Assembly (NCBI GenBank): GCA_949283215.1
Contig: CASDSC010000108.1
Location: 1 to 36,579 of the forward strand
Length of the DNA: 36,579 nucleotides
DNA from: an uncultured Alistipes sp.
GTDB taxonomy: Bacteria > Bacteroidota > Bacteroidia > Bacteroidales > Rikenellaceae
Reading direction: 5' to 3'
Under the pieces are notes generated by a model. It was given only the letters and a program-made list of their open reading frames with translations. It made no database searches and was not told where the DNA came from. Shown here one piece after another: positions 213-9,114 of this stretch (positions within the stretch are counted from its first letter, which is position 1; every line of letters starts with the position of its first letter). Made by a program: the position numbers and the translations under genes.

Positions 213-920
213 TTATAACTCTTTCAAGTCGGCAAACCAATAGGAATAGGTCTTTACCGATCCGTCGTCGAGGCGGATGTCGTAACTTTGAGAAAAGGGC
301 TCGCCCAGTTGGAATGGAACGGGATACCGGAAAATTGGACCATCATAACAGAATGTGTGGTATTCTCCGTTTTCGCCGTTAGGATCGATGTCGTCCGGCA
401 AGGAATTGACAAAGTCTTGGTCGATCATACGTCCTATGGCTGCGGCTCCAAGTCCGTCTGCCATAGTGGTTACCACGACAGTCTGAAGTCCCGAAGTGAG
501 GAAATCGGTCATCACTTCCTCCGTGGTTTTGTTCCAGAGCGGTTCGACGACATCGATGCCGTGAGGGGCAAGGTGTTGTTCTCGATATTTGCGCACGTCG
601 TGCAGGAAAATGTCCCCGAAGATAAAATGCGTTACGCCTTGAGTTTTGAAATACTCCACGGCCTTCGACATTGCGGCACCGTAATCTTCCATATTGCCTT
701 TTGGCGTCAAGTCAACAATATGGAGGGGAATGCCGATGCTGTCAGCTTGCGCTTGCAGCAGCGGCAAGGGGTTTCCGTGCATAGTCGAACGGTGTGTCGT
801 GCGGTTGACAGTGGTCAGTAATGCGATAATTTCGTATATGCCCGCTTGTTGAACGCGCAACAAGGCATGGGCGGAATCTTTTCCTCCGCTCCAGTTGAAG
901 ACAGCTTTTATGCGTTCCAT
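213..920 (-). CDS. Dph6-like PP-loop ATP pyrophosphatase (diphthine-ammonia ligase family)
   Basis: This 235-residue protein has the adenine-nucleotide alpha-hydrolase PP-loop NWSGGKDS near residues 9-16, followed by a His/Asp-rich core (FGDIFLHDVRKYRE) typical of the MJ0570/Dph6 family. In eukaryotes and archaea, Dph6 amidates diphthine on elongation factor 2 using ATP and ammonia. Bacteria do not make diphthamide, so the bacterial homologue must act on something else, probably as an ATP-dependent amide-forming enzyme in the cytoplasm. The ATG at 920 lies inside the end of the upstream DUF2284 gene (13-base overlap), so the two are almost certainly co-transcribed and translationally coupled. 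Both lie downstream of the B12 uptake genes on the same strand, which suggests a corrinoid-related substrate. That link is inference. The family call is firm; the substrate is unknown. Confidence 0.88.
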   Translation of the reverse strand: MERIKAVFNWSGGKDSAHALLRVQQAGIYEIIALLTTVNRTTHRSTMHGNPLPLLQAQADSIGIPLHIVDLTPKGNMEDYGAAMSKAVEYFKTQGVTHFIFGDIFLHDVRKYREQHLAPHGIDVVEPLWNKTTEEVMTDFLTSGLQTVVVTTMADGLGAAAIGRMIDQDFVNSLPDDIDPNGENGEYHTFCYDGPIFRYPVPFQLGEPFSQSYDIRLDDGSVKTYSYWFADLKEL

Positions 921-1480
921 ATCACTTTCTCTGCACAGTGGAAAAATCCGCAGACCAGGATCAAATATTCAGGCAGTTGACCATCGGTTCCCCATTTCAG
1001 TTCGAGACCGAATAGTTCGGAGGTCGTACGTACGATGTCAAAGCCGCAAGCTTCGAGAGACGGCCGAACCCATTCCGGATGACGGCAAGGTTTTCCTTCG
1101 TGACGAGTACAACTGCCTTGGGGACAATATAAACAGGTTCCGGCATAGGCGAATGATCGTCCTCCGTAGGAACGTTCCATATCGAGCAGTTTTTTTTCGA
1201 TCCGGATACGCTCGGGCCGGATCAAGGTCATTGCATCGGTAATAGGAAGATCAGGGACCCGAGGAGTAATTTTTGTGGCGACCAGTAATGTTGTGGTATA
1301 TCCCTCGAGGTAACGATCTACGTTAAATTCGAAGGGAGGACAACCCCAGCTACGGCCATAATTGGGACAGGCACGGCAATAACTTTCAATGCGAGCGGCA
1401 TCGCGGAAACGGGCGATGTATTCATCGGCAGGCAATGATACCGTAAAATCTTCGGCAATATATTGGAATTTAGAATCCAT
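908..1480 (-). CDS. DUF2284 cysteine-rich, predicted metal-binding protein
   Basis: About 190 residues with the cysteine pattern of DUF2284: CRACPNYGRSWGCPPF in the first third, then CLYCPQGSC with a further Cys (GKPCRHPEW) in the middle, and a late Cys in LVCGFF. The family is predicted to bind metal, probably iron-sulfur; no reaction is established. I chose the ATG at 1480 because the protein then begins with a plausible N-terminus (MDSKFQY). An in-frame ATG at 1534 would add 18 residues of less convincing sequence. A TAnnTTTG match (TACTTTTG, 1485-1492, minus strand) sits directly before this start and could give a near-leaderless transcript, or be chance. The stop overlaps the Dph6-like gene. 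A gap of about 180 bases without a clear terminator separates it from the B12 lipoprotein gene upstream. Confidence 0.82.
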   Translation of the reverse strand: MDSKFQYIAEDFTVSLPADEYIARFRDAARIESYCRACPNYGRSWGCPPFEFNVDRYLEGYTTTLLVATKITPRVPDLPITDAMTLIRPERIRIEKKLLDMERSYGGRSFAYAGTCLYCPQGSCTRHEGKPCRHPEWVRPSLEACGFDIVRTTSELFGLELKWGTDGQLPEYLILVCGFFHCAEKVIWNA

Positions 1481-1658: not shown

Positions 1659-2843
1659 TTATTGAAGTGGCATAAGTTCATTGTATGTAAAGACGATATG
1701 GGCCGGGATGTCGCCTGTTTCAATCTCCCACTTTTTTTTGCCGTTAGGATCGAAACAATAGAGTTTCCCGGGAGTTACATAGTCTTTGGCATCTGAAACA
1801 AAAATCTCGCGTGTATTGGGATTTACGGCTATACCGTAAGGAATGACGATCTGTTGTTCCGTGCCGTCAGAGATGAAGTTGCGTGTGACAACTTTCTTGG
1901 TTCGGACATTGACGATGGCATAATTGACGGTGTTACTCTGCGTAGGGTAATTCCATTCTGTGCTATAGACATAGAGAGAATCTCCGCATACAGTCATTTC
2001 GCTGTTTGGCAGCAGCTTGAATTCGTCAGTAACCTTGTCCGTCCGGCTGTCAATAACGTATGTTCGCGAGGGGACATCGTAGTAGTCGCCCCGAGAGGAA
2101 ACCCATATCTGGCCGTATTGGTCCAGTTCCAGCCTGTGCAGATTGATTGCTACGTCGATTTTTTTTATTTCCTTGAATGTTTCAAGATCAATGACCGATA
2201 CCGTGCGGTCATAATTGGGAACACGGTATCCCCCCGAATTGGCGACATATAGTTTTTTCCCGACAACGACCATTTCTTCGGGCTGATAGCCGACCGTACA
2301 TGTTCCTACGATTTGCATGGTGGCCGTATCGATCTTTGCCACGTAACCCAGGCGTGCATTGGGGTCGATCTGCACGGGTCCTGCATAGGAACTGACATAG
2401 GCATAGCGATCCTTGAAAACGATGTAACGGCAATTGGGAATAGAGATTTGTGTGATGTGGCGTGCGGTTCGTACATCCATCACCTCAACGAAGTGTGAAC
2501 AGTTGATTACTGCGTAGAGTTTTCCTCCGTAGATCTGTAGGTCGTTACCTACGTCGCCCAACTCCTTCACTACGCCCGGATTCCGCTCGGCATAGATGTT
2601 CTTCGTATAAACGCCTGTCGCATAGTCGAAATAGTCGAGTGTGGCTTTGTTGTTGCCCATGTTGCCTTCGTTGAGCAGGAAGAAGCCACGGATTTTCCGA
2701 CTGCTTCCATCGGGTGTATCGTCGGGAGGAGTAACGGGAGTCGAGGTGGAGGGAACGACCGGTTCCTCCTTGCGACAAGCGCAAAGTGCCGACAGTGCCA
2801 AGATCACGATCACTGCCGAACGTACGAAATGGTGTGTACTCAT
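1659..2843 (-). CDS. btuG: BtuG-like surface beta-propeller lipoprotein (YncE/DUF5074 type)
   Basis: This 394-residue lipoprotein has a hydrophobic signal and a lipobox ending LCAC, followed by a Pro/Thr/Ser-rich linker. The rest is a repeated-blade propeller of the YncE/DUF5074 kind, opening with GFFLLNEGNM and repeating motifs such as GGKLYAVIN and GKKLYVANSGG. Bacteroides BtuG is a surface propeller lipoprotein that captures cobalamin with very high affinity and sits on BtuB. Size, fold type and position next to btuB all fit. The ATG at 2843 overlaps the btuB stop as ATGA, a 4-base coupling overlap; the longer reading begins with TTG and is less likely. The cobalamin riboswitch at 8910-9085 probably controls it as a distal gene. 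Direct B12 binding is inferred from context, because DUF5074 propellers also occur elsewhere. Confidence 0.85.
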   Translation of the reverse strand: MSTHHFVRSAVIVILALSALCACRKEEPVVPSTSTPVTPPDDTPDGSSRKIRGFFLLNEGNMGNNKATLDYFDYATGVYTKNIYAERNPGVVKELGDVGNDLQIYGGKLYAVINCSHFVEVMDVRTARHITQISIPNCRYIVFKDRYAYVSSYAGPVQIDPNARLGYVAKIDTATMQIVGTCTVGYQPEEMVVVGKKLYVANSGGYRVPNYDRTVSVIDLETFKEIKKIDVAINLHRLELDQYGQIWVSSRGDYYDVPSRTYVIDSRTDKVTDEFKLLPNSEMTVCGDSLYVYSTEWNYPTQSNTVNYAIVNVRTKKVVTRNFISDGTEQQIVIPYGIAVNPNTREIFVSDAKDYVTPGKLYCFDPNGKKKWEIETGDIPAHIVFTYNELMPLQ

Positions 2844-4888
2844 AATATCCAACTGATGATGATTTTTACGTTAGTACCAGGCATCGGGTAGCATTGTACG
2901 ACTTCGTATTGCTGATTGAGCAGGTTGTTTACTTCAACGGTGGCCCGCAGTTGCGAGTGGTTGAGGTGAAAATTTTTAGACAGGGCGACATCGCTCGTGT
3001 ACCAGGCAAGGGCATGGTTTTCGGGAATGTTGGCCGACGATTCGTATCGTTCGCCTGTGTAGATGAAACTGTAGTTGAGGCTCCAATCGCCGAGACTCAA
3101 TCCAATGATTGCCGAGGCGCTGTGCCACGGGATGTAAGGGATCTGTCCGCCGTAATAGGGACTGTTTGGGTCAGTGAAGTCCTGCGCTTTCTGATAGGTG
3201 TATGTTGCACGACAATCGATCCCGAGTTGCCCGAAACGCATCGATCCGCTCACAACGGCATCTGCACCGCGGATTTCGACATATCCCAGATTGACCATGG
3301 TCCATTGGAATTGATTCGATGTAGGCATGGCTATAATTTTGTCATCCACCTCGTTGTAGTATGCATCAAGACTGGCTTCCAGTCGCCAAAAACGGGCTTG
3401 TGGCCACTCTTTTGTGTAGGAAATACCCATGTTGTACTGGGTGGTGTATTCCGGTTTGAGGTATTTGTTACCGATGAAGGTATAGTAGAGGTCGTTGAGG
3501 GTGGGCATGCGAAATATCCGTTTATAGAAGGCTCGCAAGGCGAGATCCACTTCACGGAAGGGTTTGTATTGCGCTACGACGGTCGGGGTAAATACGCTTT
3601 TGTCGCCCGCTTCGGCACCTTGTGTACGTGCAAAGTCATCCACGAATGTATAAAGTAAACTACTTTGAACGGTTACCTTGTTGAACCGGAAAGTCGTTGC
3701 CAAGGCTGTTAGGGACGTAAGACGCGAAGGATAGACGAAATTTACCAAATCGGCCTTGAGCGTATTGTATTGCAGGTCAGTAGCCAGATTGACATCCCAC
3801 CATTTGAATAGGGTGAATTCGTGGGCCGCTGAGAGATATGCCTCCTGTTGGTGGTAGTGATTGTCGACGAACATTGTCGTTACATCGAGTCGAGGGTCGG
3901 AGAGGTAGTGCAGGTAGTCATAGGCATATTTGGCATTGACCGCCAGTCGATAACGATCGTTCAATGCCTTGAAAAATGATCCTTGCAGGAAAAAGTTCGA
4001 ATCCCATTGCCGATCCTCGTGGCGGAATTTTCCGGGTTCTTCACGAACGAAGGCCCCAGGGTAACCGCGTTCGGATTTGTAGAAGTAGGCTTTGACGCGC
4101 CAGTTCCCGTTGGGAATCTGACCGAAGAGTCCTTCTTCAATGCGAAGAGCCCGCACATCGCCGTTTTGTCGCACAGCTGTTGTGTCATATCCGTCTGCCT
4201 TGACGTAGGAAAATTTGTAGCGTCCTGTTGTATAGAGGAACTCTGCGTTCAATGAATTGGATATTCGGTTGCTGAGTCGTTGTTCGTAGAGGACAGATGG
4301 ATTGATTGTCCCGAAGGAGCCGCCTTTTAGGGTTAGTTTAAGATTGTAACTTTTACTGTCTGTAAATTCAGGAATCCGTGTTCGGAGATATACGGCGCTG
4401 GCAGAGGCGTAGTCTTTGGCCGACTGCATGCCAGAACTTTTTTGTCCATTGTAGAGCGTTACCGCCGCCATGTTGTCGAGCGAGTATTTTCCCAAATCGA
4501 TCTGTCCGTTTTGAGCGTTACCCAGTTGGATGCCGTCGTAAAAAACTCCGACGTGCTGTGTGCCCATACCGCGGACGTTGATCGTTTTCAGACCTCCTAT
4601 TCCCCCGTAGTCTTTAATCTGGACTCCGGCGAAGTATCGGATTGCGTCTGCCACCGAGTGTGCGCTGAGACGTTGCAACAACTTTCCGTTCAGAGTCTGT
4701 GCAGGAATGACCTTTTCGGGTCGGAATCTGCCGATTACAACGATGGAGTCGATGTGTTGTCTATCATTGAACTTTGTGGAATCCGGCATTTGAGCAAAAA
4801 CGGCAGCTGTACCTGGTCCTATGCAGAGGACCAGGTACAATGCCACAACAAATACTAATCTTTTATTCTGTTTGTTACCCGTTTTCAC
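2840..4888 (-). CDS. btuB: TonB-dependent cobalamin receptor, BtuB type
   Basis: A 682-residue outer membrane receptor with an N-terminal signal (about residues 10-32, ending VFAQ). A plug domain follows, with DSIVVIG as a likely TonB-box region and the plug motif LKTINVRGMG, then a C-terminal beta-barrel rich in alternating aromatic strands ending in IISWIL. Compact length, the riboswitch upstream and the BtuG-like neighbour identify it as a BtuB-type vitamin B12 importer powered by TonB-ExbBD. No carboxypeptidase-like SusC extension is present. The start is GTG at 4888; the first in-frame ATG lies after the signal peptide, so GTG is required. It begins 4 bases after the preceding stop and its own stop overlaps the next start, consistent with one operon. 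No btuCDF or TonB genes are in the window. Confidence 0.88.
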   Translation of the reverse strand: MKTGNKQNKRLVFVVALYLVLCIGPGTAAVFAQMPDSTKFNDRQHIDSIVVIGRFRPEKVIPAQTLNGKLLQRLSAHSVADAIRYFAGVQIKDYGGIGGLKTINVRGMGTQHVGVFYDGIQLGNAQNGQIDLGKYSLDNMAAVTLYNGQKSSGMQSAKDYASASAVYLRTRIPEFTDSKSYNLKLTLKGGSFGTINPSVLYEQRLSNRISNSLNAEFLYTTGRYKFSYVKADGYDTTAVRQNGDVRALRIEEGLFGQIPNGNWRVKAYFYKSERGYPGAFVREEPGKFRHEDRQWDSNFFLQGSFFKALNDRYRLAVNAKYAYDYLHYLSDPRLDVTTMFVDNHYHQQEAYLSAAHEFTLFKWWDVNLATDLQYNTLKADLVNFVYPSRLTSLTALATTFRFNKVTVQSSLLYTFVDDFARTQGAEAGDKSVFTPTVVAQYKPFREVDLALRAFYKRIFRMPTLNDLYYTFIGNKYLKPEYTTQYNMGISYTKEWPQARFWRLEASLDAYYNEVDDKIIAMPTSNQFQWTMVNLGYVEIRGADAVVSGSMRFGQLGIDCRATYTYQKAQDFTDPNSPYYGGQIPYIPWHSASAIIGLSLGDWSLNYSFIYTGERYESSANIPENHALAWYTSDVALSKNFHLNHSQLRATVEVNNLLNQQYEVVQCYPMPGTNVKIIISWIL

Positions 4889-4892
4889 CGTA

Positions 4893-6614
4893 TTATTTGT
4901 TCATGTTGAAATCTTTGATGTCGAACACTTCTGTCGATACCTCGCCGATCCAGCCGCATTGTTGATTCAGGGCAACCTGAATTTTTACGAAATCGATATA
5001 TTTCAGGTTGGCATCCCGGCCGTCAAATGTCACGGCGTTGGAGATCTTGAAGTGGTTGTCGGTTGGCGCGGCATTGTAGTTGTCGTCATCACTTAATCGA
5101 TCAATCGGGCTGTAATTATCGGCATATCCCCATTCGAAGGCCGGGTTAACCCAATAGGTCCCGTTTCCTGACTGGTCGTAACTCCGTGATCGAAGACATG
5201 GTCCCCGTAGTGTGTAGCTATCCTCAGCTACCCAAGTCGGATAATAGTAATCTTGTGAATGGAACGCGCCGAGATATTCGATAGCTCCGTTGGCTCCGCG
5301 GTTGTCGGTCCACAGGGTGTTCATCTTCGGAGCAGACGGCCGGTAATAGGTTACAGCATAATCTTGGATTGTTTCCTCTTTGCCGTATTCTGATCCTCGG
5401 AGTTCGTACCAGGTGTCGTTGGGCAAACCGTCACCGTTTTCATCCTGCATGACCCAGACGATGGCTGGTTCGGACGAACCGTTGAAGGCGTTGCCTGTGA
5501 TGGCGATATTGTAGTCTCCGTCATTGTCAATACTGTGGTCGAATCCGACAACAATATATCCACCGAAACCACCTAATGAGATATATGCTTTTTGCGCGAG
5601 GATACTTTCTGCATAAGCGCAAGCTTCATCCATGGTGTTTACCGTATAGGAGTCGTTGATAAATTGGCCGGGAGCCGGCAGAAATTCGTAAACCTTGTTA
5701 CAGGATACCTGGCTGTTTCCTGAACGGGGCCGATAGTAGGTTCCTTCGGCTGGACACACGTTGACAGTGAAAAGTTGGGAGGCCGAGAGATGATCGTTTC
5801 GCATTTCGAGTTTGATCATGTGTGTGCCTGTGGTTTGGGCTGAGAAGGCATATTCTGGCTTTTCATTTTCTTGCACGACCTCGCCGTCGATACTCCACGT
5901 GTAGGTGGCGTTGAATGCGTTTTTGATATCTACGGCTCTGATTCGGATTGTGCGACCGATAGCTACATTGTAGGAGGTTTGTTCGAAGTCCCATTCGAAG
6001 TCGATCTCATCAGCAGACCGTACATATACCGGAAATTCGATAAAATCCTCACCGTCTTCATTGCGTGTGTCGAGGCGTAGTGTATAATCGCCTCGTTTCG
6101 ATGCGGTGAATACATAATTCTGTTCGTTACCTACCGTTTCGCCGTCGAGTGTCCAAAGATAGGATGTTTCGAGGGTTGAAGCGACCTGCGGTAGTAATGT
6201 CAGTTCCGAACCGAGTAGTACGGTAAAGCCATTTTCTGCGCCTGGTAATGAAATCGTTGGCGGTGTAGGATCGAGCACATCGATACGTAATTCTTCTTCG
6301 TCTGTACCCCCTTGGTTGGTTACAGTTAGGGTAATGTAATATCGACCACTCTGTTCAGGAGTGAATTTTAAGGTCGGCTCATTTCCAATTATCTCATTGT
6401 CGAGTCGCCATGCGAAGGATGCATCTTCGGCATTTTCGTATGTTGGACGGATTTCGATTTCTCGACCGGTCTTGACTGTGTAAATCGACGTTGGACTGTC
6501 GAGGGTAATTATTGGAGGGTCAGGTAATGAGAGTTTTCCCCCAGTATCGGAACAACTAGCCATAAGTAAACTGGCAAAAGTTGCAAAGAAATAATAGAAT
6601 ATGGTTCGTTTCAT
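4893..6614 (-). CDS. PKD-like repeat surface lipoprotein of the B12 locus
   Basis: A 573-residue lipoprotein with signal and lipobox LLMASCSD. Three Ig/PKD-like repeats of about 80 residues follow, each with the recurring core F.W.LDNE.IG..., seen as FAWRLDNEIIGNE, YLWTLDGETVGNE and YTWSIDGEVVQENE. After about residue 290 comes a different, aromatic- and Gly-rich domain (GGFGGYIVVGFDHSID, DENGDGLPNDTWYELRGSEYG). The Asp-rich DENGDGLPNDTW stretch may bind calcium. The ATG at 6614 was chosen over an upstream TTG because it begins directly at the signal peptide. Lying between a propeller lipoprotein and btuB, it is probably a surface accessory factor for corrinoid capture, but I cannot assign a ligand. 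It could resemble the B12-binding surface lipoproteins described besides BtuG in Bacteroides; that is a guess from context. Confidence 0.75.
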   Translation of the reverse strand: MKRTIFYYFFATFASLLMASCSDTGGKLSLPDPPIITLDSPTSIYTVKTGREIEIRPTYENAEDASFAWRLDNEIIGNEPTLKFTPEQSGRYYITLTVTNQGGTDEEELRIDVLDPTPPTISLPGAENGFTVLLGSELTLLPQVASTLETSYLWTLDGETVGNEQNYVFTASKRGDYTLRLDTRNEDGEDFIEFPVYVRSADEIDFEWDFEQTSYNVAIGRTIRIRAVDIKNAFNATYTWSIDGEVVQENEKPEYAFSAQTTGTHMIKLEMRNDHLSASQLFTVNVCPAEGTYYRPRSGNSQVSCNKVYEFLPAPGQFINDSYTVNTMDEACAYAESILAQKAYISLGGFGGYIVVGFDHSIDNDGDYNIAITGNAFNGSSEPAIVWVMQDENGDGLPNDTWYELRGSEYGKEETIQDYAVTYYRPSAPKMNTLWTDNRGANGAIEYLGAFHSQDYYYPTWVAEDSYTLRGPCLRSRSYDQSGNGTYWVNPAFEWGYADNYSPIDRLSDDDNYNAAPTDNHFKISNAVTFDGRDANLKYIDFVKIQVALNQQCGWIGEVSTEVFDIKDFNMNK

Positions 6615-6706
6615 GTTTGGTCCCAATCAGTGAGTTCTATGGATTTGAACGGCACTACCGCCATGGGGCGGCAATGCCGTTCGAAATGCATTGGTTTTGA
6701 GTTGGA

Positions 6707-8608
6707 TCAATAGGAAGCTGAGAAGAAGATTCCTGCCGGGAAGTGGGTGTAGTTTTGGTAGTCGGCGACCAGAGAGGGGACTCCCGAGCTCATGTCGTAC
6801 ACCGAAATATCGTTTGTGAGGAAACTCCAACCATATCCCAAAATCGTGTTGTAATAGTATTCTCCGGTTATAGGGTGGATTGCAGGCATATTGTATATCA
6901 TGCCCCAGTTCGCGATGGTTGATTTAATGTCACCTAACGTTTCAGTGGTGTTAGATGTGAAATTGTGGCGGTAGATCGTGGAGGTGTTGTTGCAGAAGTA
7001 AATCTCGTCGCCTTTGGCTGAGATTCCTGGGGTGGCGCCCCAACCTGGAGATACACCTCCTTCGGTCAGAGTGTGCTTGTCCATCGAGTAGCCGGTGGCA
7101 GAGAGTTTGATGATCTGGGCAGGGTTGGTCGAGCACGAAACCCATAGATAACCCTCTTCGTCGGATTTAATGACTCCAGTTACGGTGCCATCCATTGCGA
7201 CAGTCTCTACGACTGAGCCGTTTACCAGCACAAGAATCGATTTATTGGCTGGAGCAAAGACCTTGTTTCCGACAACAGCCATACGGTTTTTCAGGGCCCC
7301 TTTCGTTCCCTCGAGTGCAGTGAGAGCGCGCGAGTCTAAATCCAGAGTCCATAGACCGGCATTGTCGCGGATATAGGCGGTACGGCCGATTACAACTACA
7401 TGGGTTGGCCATGAGAGTCCCGAGAGATCGTCGGTACTGAATTTATTGGTGTTTTTGAGTGTCTTGGCATCCATTTCGACCAACATGCCGTCGTTTCCGC
7501 CATTTTGTGAAATAATGTACATTTTGCCTCCGGTAATGAACAGGTCTTGCGCTGAATTTCCCAATTCCGAGTTATTCATTCGCCAGTAGGCATGGTCGAT
7601 GACGTGTCCGTCGGCGGTGATGTAGATAAGCGAACCATTTTCCGTTGTCATGTTTCCCTCATTGAGGACAAATGTACCTTTGGAATCGGAAAAATCAACT
7701 GCACAAATGCGTGTAGAGGCGAATACCGTTTGGCCCTTGCTGTCGGTGGCAATAAGAGAAAGAATACCTTCGGTATAATATGAACCGGAGAAAGCAGGCG
7801 CTGTTACCTTTATGGTTCTGGATTTAGAATCGATTTCGGCAGACCATCCCTGTGGCACATTCATCAGATCAACCGCTATCACTTCGCCCTTATACGAAAG
7901 AGTCTGTTCTTCGCCGAATGTGAACGTAAAGTAATTGTCAATGTCATTGTCAGTTGACCCTAAAGGTAGCGTTTCGGTGTACACGAATGTGAATCCTGCG
8001 GGCGAGGCTTTCGGGATTGAGATCGTTGTTTTGCCGTCGGCCAGGGTGAAGATTACCTCGGTTTCTCCGTCCTGCATGTCGGAAAAGATTGAATCACCAT
8101 CGCTGCCTTCGGCTTTGACTCCCATCGAAGACCAGTTTTGTCCTCCGTCGGTCGACATTTCCCACTCTGCGGTGTTCGGGTTAATACGCAGTTGCGGGGT
8201 AATGCCATCCGCACCTTCGGCTTTAATCTTATGTCCGTCCACCTCGATGATTGTGCCGTCGAGAGCCCAATAGTAGAGGTCGTCCTGGCCTTTGATTACA
8301 GAAAGTGCCGGGGCACTGGTACCGTCCTCCCCGTTTGAAATCGTAGCCGTTGAACCATCCGAAAAATGAATGGTATAACCGTCAGTGTTTTCGTCGACCG
8401 AGGTTATTGTTATATTCTGTTGTAAGGCTTTAACCAGTTTTTGAAGAGACTCGATGTCCGTGTTGGCTTTTTTCGCAGCTTGTTCAAGAAGTTCCATTCG
8501 CCCGTTCAAGTCGTTTACGGCGTTCCACAAATCGTCGTCATTGTATGAGCAGCTCCACGTTACAATGCTCAGGAGGACAATAGTCCAAAAGGTAAATAAT
8601 CTTCTCAT
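6707..8608 (-). CDS. DUF4988 coiled coil plus DUF5074 propeller surface lipoprotein
   Basis: This 633-residue lipoprotein is the first gene behind the riboswitch. Order of parts: signal peptide with lipobox (VTWSCS); a short heptad coiled coil (about residues 28-65, DLNGRMELLEQAAKK); a DUF4988-type beta-rich stalk with collagen-like ISNGEDGTSAP; an Ig-like segment; and from about residue 300 a DUF5074 propeller opening GTFVLNEGNM, the same signature that opens the BtuG-like protein at 1659-2843. The coiled coil suggests it trimerises or projects the propeller from the cell. The ATG at 8608 is preferred. The frame stays open 88 codons further up to 8872, but that stretch is leader RNA containing a terminator hairpin and does not look like protein. 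It is probably a second corrinoid-binding surface protein; a different ligand is possible. Confidence 0.82.
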   Translation of the reverse strand: MRRLFTFWTIVLLSIVTWSCSYNDDDLWNAVNDLNGRMELLEQAAKKANTDIESLQKLVKALQQNITITSVDENTDGYTIHFSDGSTATISNGEDGTSAPALSVIKGQDDLYYWALDGTIIEVDGHKIKAEGADGITPQLRINPNTAEWEMSTDGGQNWSSMGVKAEGSDGDSIFSDMQDGETEVIFTLADGKTTISIPKASPAGFTFVYTETLPLGSTDNDIDNYFTFTFGEEQTLSYKGEVIAVDLMNVPQGWSAEIDSKSRTIKVTAPAFSGSYYTEGILSLIATDSKGQTVFASTRICAVDFSDSKGTFVLNEGNMTTENGSLIYITADGHVIDHAYWRMNNSELGNSAQDLFITGGKMYIISQNGGNDGMLVEMDAKTLKNTNKFSTDDLSGLSWPTHVVVIGRTAYIRDNAGLWTLDLDSRALTALEGTKGALKNRMAVVGNKVFAPANKSILVLVNGSVVETVAMDGTVTGVIKSDEEGYLWVSCSTNPAQIIKLSATGYSMDKHTLTEGGVSPGWGATPGISAKGDEIYFCNNTSTIYRHNFTSNTTETLGDIKSTIANWGMIYNMPAIHPITGEYYYNTILGYGWSFLTNDISVYDMSSGVPSLVADYQNYTHFPAGIFFSASY

Positions 8609-8651
8609 GTTTTTAAAATTTTTTATAAAGTCGAGTTCTGGTACGAATAAA

Positions 8652-8690
8652 AAATGCTTGCTGCGGGTATAAAACTCGAAGCAAGCATTT
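8652..8690 (-). terminator. Leader hairpin with U-run downstream of the B12 riboswitch
   Basis: Arms 8680-8690 and 8652-8662 form a perfect 11-bp stem (AAATGCTTGCT pairing with AGCAAGCATTT) around a 17-base loop. The transcript continues with a run of U residues ending near 8649. This is an intrinsic-terminator-like structure in the 5' leader, about 45 bases before the first start codon and about 220 bases past the riboswitch aptamer. It could be the transcriptional expression platform or an attenuator. The stem is AT-rich, so its strength is uncertain. Confidence 0.55.
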
Positions 8691-8909
8691 CTGCAAATGG
8701 GGTATATGGCCTGTAACGACGTGATTTTTATAGTTCTCACGCCGTAAACAAGTTCACGAATTTGTATTCCTGTCGCCATTTGAATCACATGGGTGATTGC
8801 ACGACGGGAAGCGTAGAAAAAATCAAATTTGGGAAAGGGTGCGATGAGACAACGCGAACCGAACCGTTGCATTTGATTATAACCCGAAACCCGCGGGTGC
8901 CAATCATTT

Positions 8910-9085
8910 GTTAAGGCAGGTCTTCTGACTTGTCCCCGTTTATCGCGCCTTCCCAGTATGAACCAGTGGCAAAGATGTGGATAAACAATACTCCCTCAGG
9001 AGAGGACTTACAGCAGCGAGTACTGTTCCGGATTTTCACCGGATTCCCTTTTCATTTGTCCGGCATGCCGGACAAAAACCTTGAC
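8910..9085 (-). promoter_or_regulatory. Cobalamin (AdoCbl) riboswitch aptamer
   Basis: On the minus strand the conserved cobalamin-aptamer segments appear in order: GGGAATCCGGTGAAAATCC, the CGCTGCTGTAAG core, GCCACTG, TGGGAAGGCG and finally the B12 box AGTCAGAAGACCTGCC (8915-8930). A P1 stem can be drawn between GTCAAGG (9079-9085) and CCTTAAC (8910-8916) with one mismatch. A 22-base perfect palindrome at 9055-9076 forms the stem after P1. Binding of cobalamin normally represses the downstream transport genes. The aptamer begins within about 5 bases of the predicted transcription start. Its target is the lipoprotein/btuB operon extending to about 1659 and perhaps 213. Confidence 0.96.
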
Positions 9086-9089
9086 GCTG

Positions 9090-9097
9090 CAAAGGTA
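9090..9097 (-). promoter_or_regulatory. -7 promoter box of the B12 operon
   Basis: TACCTTTG on the minus strand is an exact match to the Bacteroidetes -7 consensus TAnnTTTG. It lies 5 bases before the 5' arm of riboswitch helix P1, which puts the transcription start at about 9083-9086. I see no TTG at the usual -33 spacing; that region is occupied instead by the palindrome at 9115-9132. Confidence 0.75.
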
Positions 9098-9114
9098 GTC
9101 ATGTTTTTAATATA

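Follow-up and report, generated by a model that had tools for sequence, protein, structure and literature searches.

A coupled DUF2284–DUF71 gene pair beside a cobalamin uptake operon in Alistipes and its possible role in corrinoid handling

Gene content of the locus

Two small genes lie behind a riboswitch-led B12 uptake operon in the window, the 36,579-nucleotide stretch of uncultured Alistipes sp. DNA analyzed here, which raises the questions of whether they belong to that operon and what their products act upon. The features of the locus are as follows.

102–144, no strand: inverted repeat of 17 bp with a T-rich tail, downstream of DUF71 (from sequence and fold)
213–920, minus: DUF71/COG2102 PP-loop ATPase (PF01902), ORF of 235 aa, Pfam E 1.7e-32, motifs FNWSGGKD and ENGEYH
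908–1480, minus: DUF2284 (PF10050) cysteine-rich protein, ORF of 190 aa, Pfam E 5.6e-22, predicted CblD/QueG-like nitroreductase-type fold
1485–1492, minus: predicted promoter, TACTTTTG, an exact match to the Bacteroidota -7 element that lies 12 bases ahead of the DUF2284 start codon ATG
1659–2852, minus: BtuG-like DUF5074 beta-propeller protein (domain match)
2840–4888, minus: BtuB-like TonB-dependent receptor; its top NCBIfam hit, the model for the vitamin B12 receptor, scores 94.8 bits, far below that model's cut-off
4893–6626, minus: PKD_3-domain protein of the B12 uptake operon (domain match)
6707–8872, minus: DUF4988 and DUF5074 protein of the B12 uptake operon (domain match); its true start is probably internal
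8898–9098, minus: cobalamin riboswitch RF00174 heading the uptake operon, 99.5 bits

The ORFs, the Pfam matches and the riboswitch match confirm the arrangement originally described, namely a minus-strand DUF71 and DUF2284 pair overlapping by 13 bases behind a riboswitch-led btuB/btuG operon. The DUF2284 protein scores 78.7 bits, over the PF10050 gathering cut-off of 25, and an in-frame ATG at 1534 would lengthen it to 208 aa. As had also been noted, the pair has no clear terminator upstream; no terminator-like site was found between DUF5074 and DUF2284 in 1480–1659. The 17-bp inverted repeat at 102–144 is probably a two-way terminator closing the DUF2284–DUF71 unit. The -7 promoter element of the uptake operon itself, TACCTTTG at 9090–9097, sits on the 5' boundary of the Rfam match to the riboswitch. 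Since no signal peptide is evident by eye in the window DUF2284 or DUF71, both proteins are probably cytoplasmic. They differ in this from BtuG, BtuH and other accessory proteins of Bacteroides B12 loci, which share the setting of riboswitch-led btuB operons but are surface lipoproteins (PMC6143338, PMC8941943).

Coupling and transcription of the pair

DUF2284 precedes DUF71 on the same strand in 25 of 28 distinct paired loci, and the two genes overlap by 4–25 bases in 24 of those 25, so the overlap in the window is not due to chance; in the remaining three loci the genes either converge (two loci) or stand in reverse order (one locus). The element TAnnTTTG was detected 12–14 bases before the DUF2284 start codon in 10 of 38 genes, against 0.045 in shuffles, and in 11 of 485 control genes from these loci, among which DUF2284 genes may themselves be counted. 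Upstream of the window element TACTTTTG, a -33 TTG was not found. The recurrence of a -7 element just before the DUF2284 start favors a near-leaderless DUF2284 transcript of its own and weakens the case for read-through from the riboswitch, though both may occur. The original prediction had placed the pair in the riboswitch-led transcript. This view is weakened by the putative near-leaderless promoter element, present in many genomes including the window, and by the survey of the window's family, in which pairs near riboswitches often lie on the opposite strand. An independent start near 1485 had been named as an outcome that would speak against that transcript, and on the sequence side of this point a -7 element is predicted at 1485–1492.

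Relationship of the window DUF71 to Dph6 and DUF71-B12

The DUF71 family has been divided into Dph6 and DUF71-B12, the latter adjoining B12 genes in most cases and carrying ENGE[FY]H where Dph6 has the motif EGG[ED]xE (de Crecy-Lagard et al., 2012; PMC3541065). The window DUF71 shares with this subgroup the PP-loop SGGKD, the motif, as ENGEYH, and the B12 transport neighbors, which lone relatives of the same clade mostly do not have. It differs in falling in a clade separate from the DUF71 proteins encoded directly behind riboswitches, in being paired with DUF2284, and in that most genomes carrying it have no CbiB, CobU or CbiZ. ENGE[FY]H was found in 118 of 129 matched DUF71 sequences, a set that includes a duplicate of the window gene. 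Because the window protein bears the subgroup motif, its B12 link is the known part of the present finding: the connection drawn in the original prediction is supported, though it was published already in 2012 (PMC3541065).

Identity of the window DUF71 with Dph6 itself was rejected. The Dph6 catalytic motif EGG[ED]xE188 is replaced by ENGEYH, with His for Glu188, and the match to the Dph6 equivalog TIGR03679 reaches 89.2 bits against a cut-off of 197.3. The two nevertheless belong to one superfamily, as a phmmer match to Dph6 (PF0828, 3rjz) covers residues 9–203 of the window DUF71 with an E of 3.6e-15. To our knowledge, bacteria make no diphthamide, and the earlier argument that this enzyme needs another substrate holds.

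In a quick FastTree tree, the window DUF71 grouped in a clade of 98 rows (99*), apart from the DUF71 proteins encoded directly behind riboswitches, which come from other Bacteroidales and are placed before btuF. One locus encodes both types: at L117:7207-8582, a B12 riboswitch and a BtuB-like gene are followed by a tandem of two DUF71 genes, one per subfamily, whose products may be complementary. The majority of the window DUF71's relatives are lone genes without a B12 neighbor, suggesting that DUF71 may serve a wider function or another one. No conserved non-B12 neighbor of lone DUF71 genes was found either, the contexts being mixed; the commonest is PF01497, in 7 of 79 neighboring proteins and partly from the riboswitch-led type.

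Distribution of DUF2284 and its association with B12 loci

Across 120 genomes of the window's family (Rikenellaceae), DUF2284 was detected in 33 and DUF71 in 36; both occur in 25, of which 19 carry them side by side, that is, within 3 kb. An even draw of 394 other Bacteroidota genomes, the window apart, yielded no DUF2284 outside the family, although named Bacteroides and Muribaculaceae loci do carry it, and DUF71 was present in 110 of 395 Bacteroidota genomes of the even draw. The pair recurs beside B12 riboswitches: 8 of the 19 pairs lie within 10 kb of such a riboswitch among the matches listed, against 0.56 expected, an enrichment that is indicative, as the surveyed genomes are related and probabilities overstate its significance. 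For the other 11 pairs, partly on short contigs, no B12 riboswitch was found within 10 kb among the matches listed. Within the same distance and again among the matches listed, 6 of 14 lone DUF2284 genes but 1 of 17 lone DUF71 genes have a riboswitch (expected 0.41 and 0.48, respectively). The DUF2284 genes close to a riboswitch are spread over at least six genus groups and their gene orders differ. Since pairs and lone DUF2284 genes are enriched near riboswitches and lone DUF71 genes are not, it is DUF2284, more than DUF71, that carries the B12-locus link. The original prediction is therefore supported as to B12 but not as to the transcript, and the partner to which it gave no role has the stronger B12 evidence.

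DUF2284 also occurs without DUF71 in complete uptake operons. In L109, a locus that came in through locus-level riboswitch searches, it closes an operon of riboswitch, 198-aa protein, DUF4988, PKD3, DUF5074, BtuB and DUF2284. The Bacteroides finegoldii operon runs from the riboswitch through DUF4465, PKD, lipoprotein, YncE, BtuB, BtuF, BtuC and BtuD to DUF2284. This riboswitch-led B12 uptake operon is held complete in an element with integrase genes (L149:1433-14980), and horizontal transfer of B12 uptake is possible. Three clostridial DUF2284 genes were found, the first adjoining genes for a URO-D-family protein and RACo, the second those for a B12-binding corrinoid protein and a homocysteine S-methyltransferase, and the third tetrapyrrole methylase/HemD and siroheme synthase genes. 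In the library searched, DUF2284 is absent from the 2012 study (PMC3541065) and elsewhere named but never in a B12 or DUF71 context.

Several other genes were observed at these loci. An AspT/YidE-type permease (PF06826) is encoded directly behind a B12 riboswitch and beside DUF2284 at L006:11849-13612, L007:11314-12999, L059:11169-12941 and L004:1-1688, and is a candidate B12-regulated inner-membrane transporter. At L141:9365-9928 a DUF6580 protein is encoded within a riboswitch-led operon, with PKD_3 on one side and DUF2284 on the other, and a class III anaerobic ribonucleotide reductase is encoded directly behind a B12 riboswitch at L128:10545-12842.

Conserved cysteines and predicted fold of DUF2284

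Seven cysteines are conserved in DUF2284, at residues 35, 38, 47, 116, 119, 124 and 132. Those at 38, 47, 116, 119, 124 and 132 are invariant in 42 sequences including the clostridial ones, and Cys35 is invariant in the Bacteroidota set. A search for solved structures with sequence similarity to DUF2284 gave none. The model of the window protein (pLDDT 93, pTM 0.88) ranked the human B12 chaperone CblD at the top (Z 6.3–7.0), followed by the MetH activation domain (Z 6.0), with QueG and a reductive dehalogenase lower. A second model, of a 38%-identical homolog and built on a separate alignment without the window's close relatives, returned CblD (Z 6.2–6.7) and QueG (Z 4.5–4.9) in all of the first ten rows, with CblC and a reductive dehalogenase at lower rank. 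QueG binds B12 through a nitroreductase-type module common to RdhA and CblC (PMC4646009). CblD, described without known enzymatic activity in humans, has a modified nitroreductase fold, and its closest relative, CblC, reaches only a DALI Z of 5.2 (PMC4705923).

As all Z values are below 8 and the Foldseek E is 0.47, the magnitude of the match alone proves nothing, and it is the rank order that counts. Nor does sharing a fold with these proteins demonstrate that B12 is bound. In both models B12 proteins outrank plain nitroreductases, and this predicted ranking and the gene context agree in pointing to corrinoid handling. The likeness to CblC/CblD, QueG, RdhA and the MetH activation domain lies in their being the best structural matches of the two models and in the corrinoid gene context; DUF2284 differs from them in having no detectable sequence similarity, in its own seven-cysteine pattern, and in having no recognized ferredoxin domain.

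Proposed role of the pair and alternative explanations

We propose, at a probability of about 0.5, that the two genes make up a corrinoid-handling unit of B12-scavenging gut Bacteroidales, coupled in translation and under a promoter of their own. DUF2284, with its predicted nitroreductase-type fold, would bind the imported corrinoid and reduce it, deligate it or pass it on, and the seven conserved cysteines may build a metal site that serves this reaction. DUF71, a PP-loop protein with His for the Dph6 Glu, would be the ATP-using partner acting on the same corrinoid or on its acceptor, in a reaction with no need of CbiZ, CbiB or CobU, for which ATP-dependent amidation of a side-chain carboxylate may be one option. 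The genes and their coupling, the enrichment at B12 loci, the promoter element, the motif, the gene absences and the fold ranking of the models were established directly; we infer the corrinoid binding, the metal site and the redox or delivery function of DUF2284, as well as any substrate of DUF71.

A different mechanism was put forward in 2012, in which DUF71-B12 replaces the amidohydrolase CbiZ in pseudo-B12 salvage, cleaving pseudo-B12 to cobyric acid that is rebuilt by CbiB (PMC3541065). The clustering of bacterial DUF71-B12 genes with btuCDF and cbiB and their anti-correlation with CbiZ speak for it (PMC3541065), and CbiZ was indeed found in none of the 120 family genomes. However, CbiB is present in only 7 and CobU in 12 of these. 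Among the 36 DUF71-bearing family genomes, 33 have no CbiB and 30 no CobU (3 and 6 have them, respectively), and the 25 near-complete ones give the same picture, with 23 lacking CbiB (2 have it) and 20 lacking CobU (5 have it). The window genome itself, 86% complete, has neither CbiZ nor CbiB, and so departs from the 2012 pattern of CbiB present and CbiZ absent. As CbiB and CobU are mostly absent, the 2012 mechanism cannot work in most DUF71-bearing genomes of the family, where cobyric acid would be a dead end and DUF71 must have intact corrinoids, or else a different substrate, to work on. A CbiZ-substitute role was rejected on these absences for most of the family, and as a general account of DUF71 here it is very improbable.

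Dph6 homologs amidate a carboxylate using ATP and ammonia, which lends some appeal to the idea of the original prediction that DUF71 is an ATP-dependent amide ligase re-amidating partly hydrolyzed corrinoid side chains in salvage, with DUF2284 holding the corrinoid. Such a reaction does not depend on CbiZ, CbiB or CobU, in keeping with their absence, and suits the B12-locus context. We nevertheless consider it doubtful as the full explanation, given that the Dph6 catalytic Glu188 is replaced by His in the window protein (PMC3541065) and that most relatives have no B12 neighbors. These same lone DUF71 genes in mixed contexts, together with the pair's own promoter element, may instead suggest a function outside B12, in which a PP-loop enzyme and a cysteine cluster form a sulfur- or nitrogen-transfer system acting on RNA or protein, and the proximity to B12 genes is local hitchhiking. 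Fe-S clusters held by cysteines serve PP-loop enzymes such as TtcA. This reading is unlikely in view of the DUF2284 genes that occur without DUF71 in complete B12 operons and beside corrinoid genes in Clostridia, and of the DUF2284 models, which rank CblD and QueG first.

Implications for cobamide metabolism in gut Bacteroidota

For the corrinoid-handling unit proposed here, side-chain amidation by DUF71 is possible and fits genomes without CbiZ, CbiB and CobU, whereas a CbiZ-like hydrolysis feeding CbiB does not fit most genomes of the family. What is new is the part of DUF2284: its gene context in two phyla and the ranking of the predicted folds agree on corrinoid handling. A broader and more tentative proposal, which we regard as possible but less likely than the unit itself, is that DUF2284 constitutes an unrecognized bacterial family of corrinoid chaperone-reductases, an Fe-S-bearing counterpart of CblC/CblD that would act after uptake in Bacteroidota and in corrinoid-protein activation in Clostridia, and that with DUF71 would edit or repair imported cobamides where the nucleotide loop cannot be rebuilt.

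The uptake of cobamides by gut Bacteroidota has been studied closely, while their fate inside the cell is little known. The question of DUF71-B12 function, posed since 2012, is narrowed in that the enzyme must here do without CbiZ and, for the most part, without CbiB and CobU. Should DUF2284 prove to chaperone or reduce corrinoids, a "metal-binding protein of unknown function" would gain a testable role.
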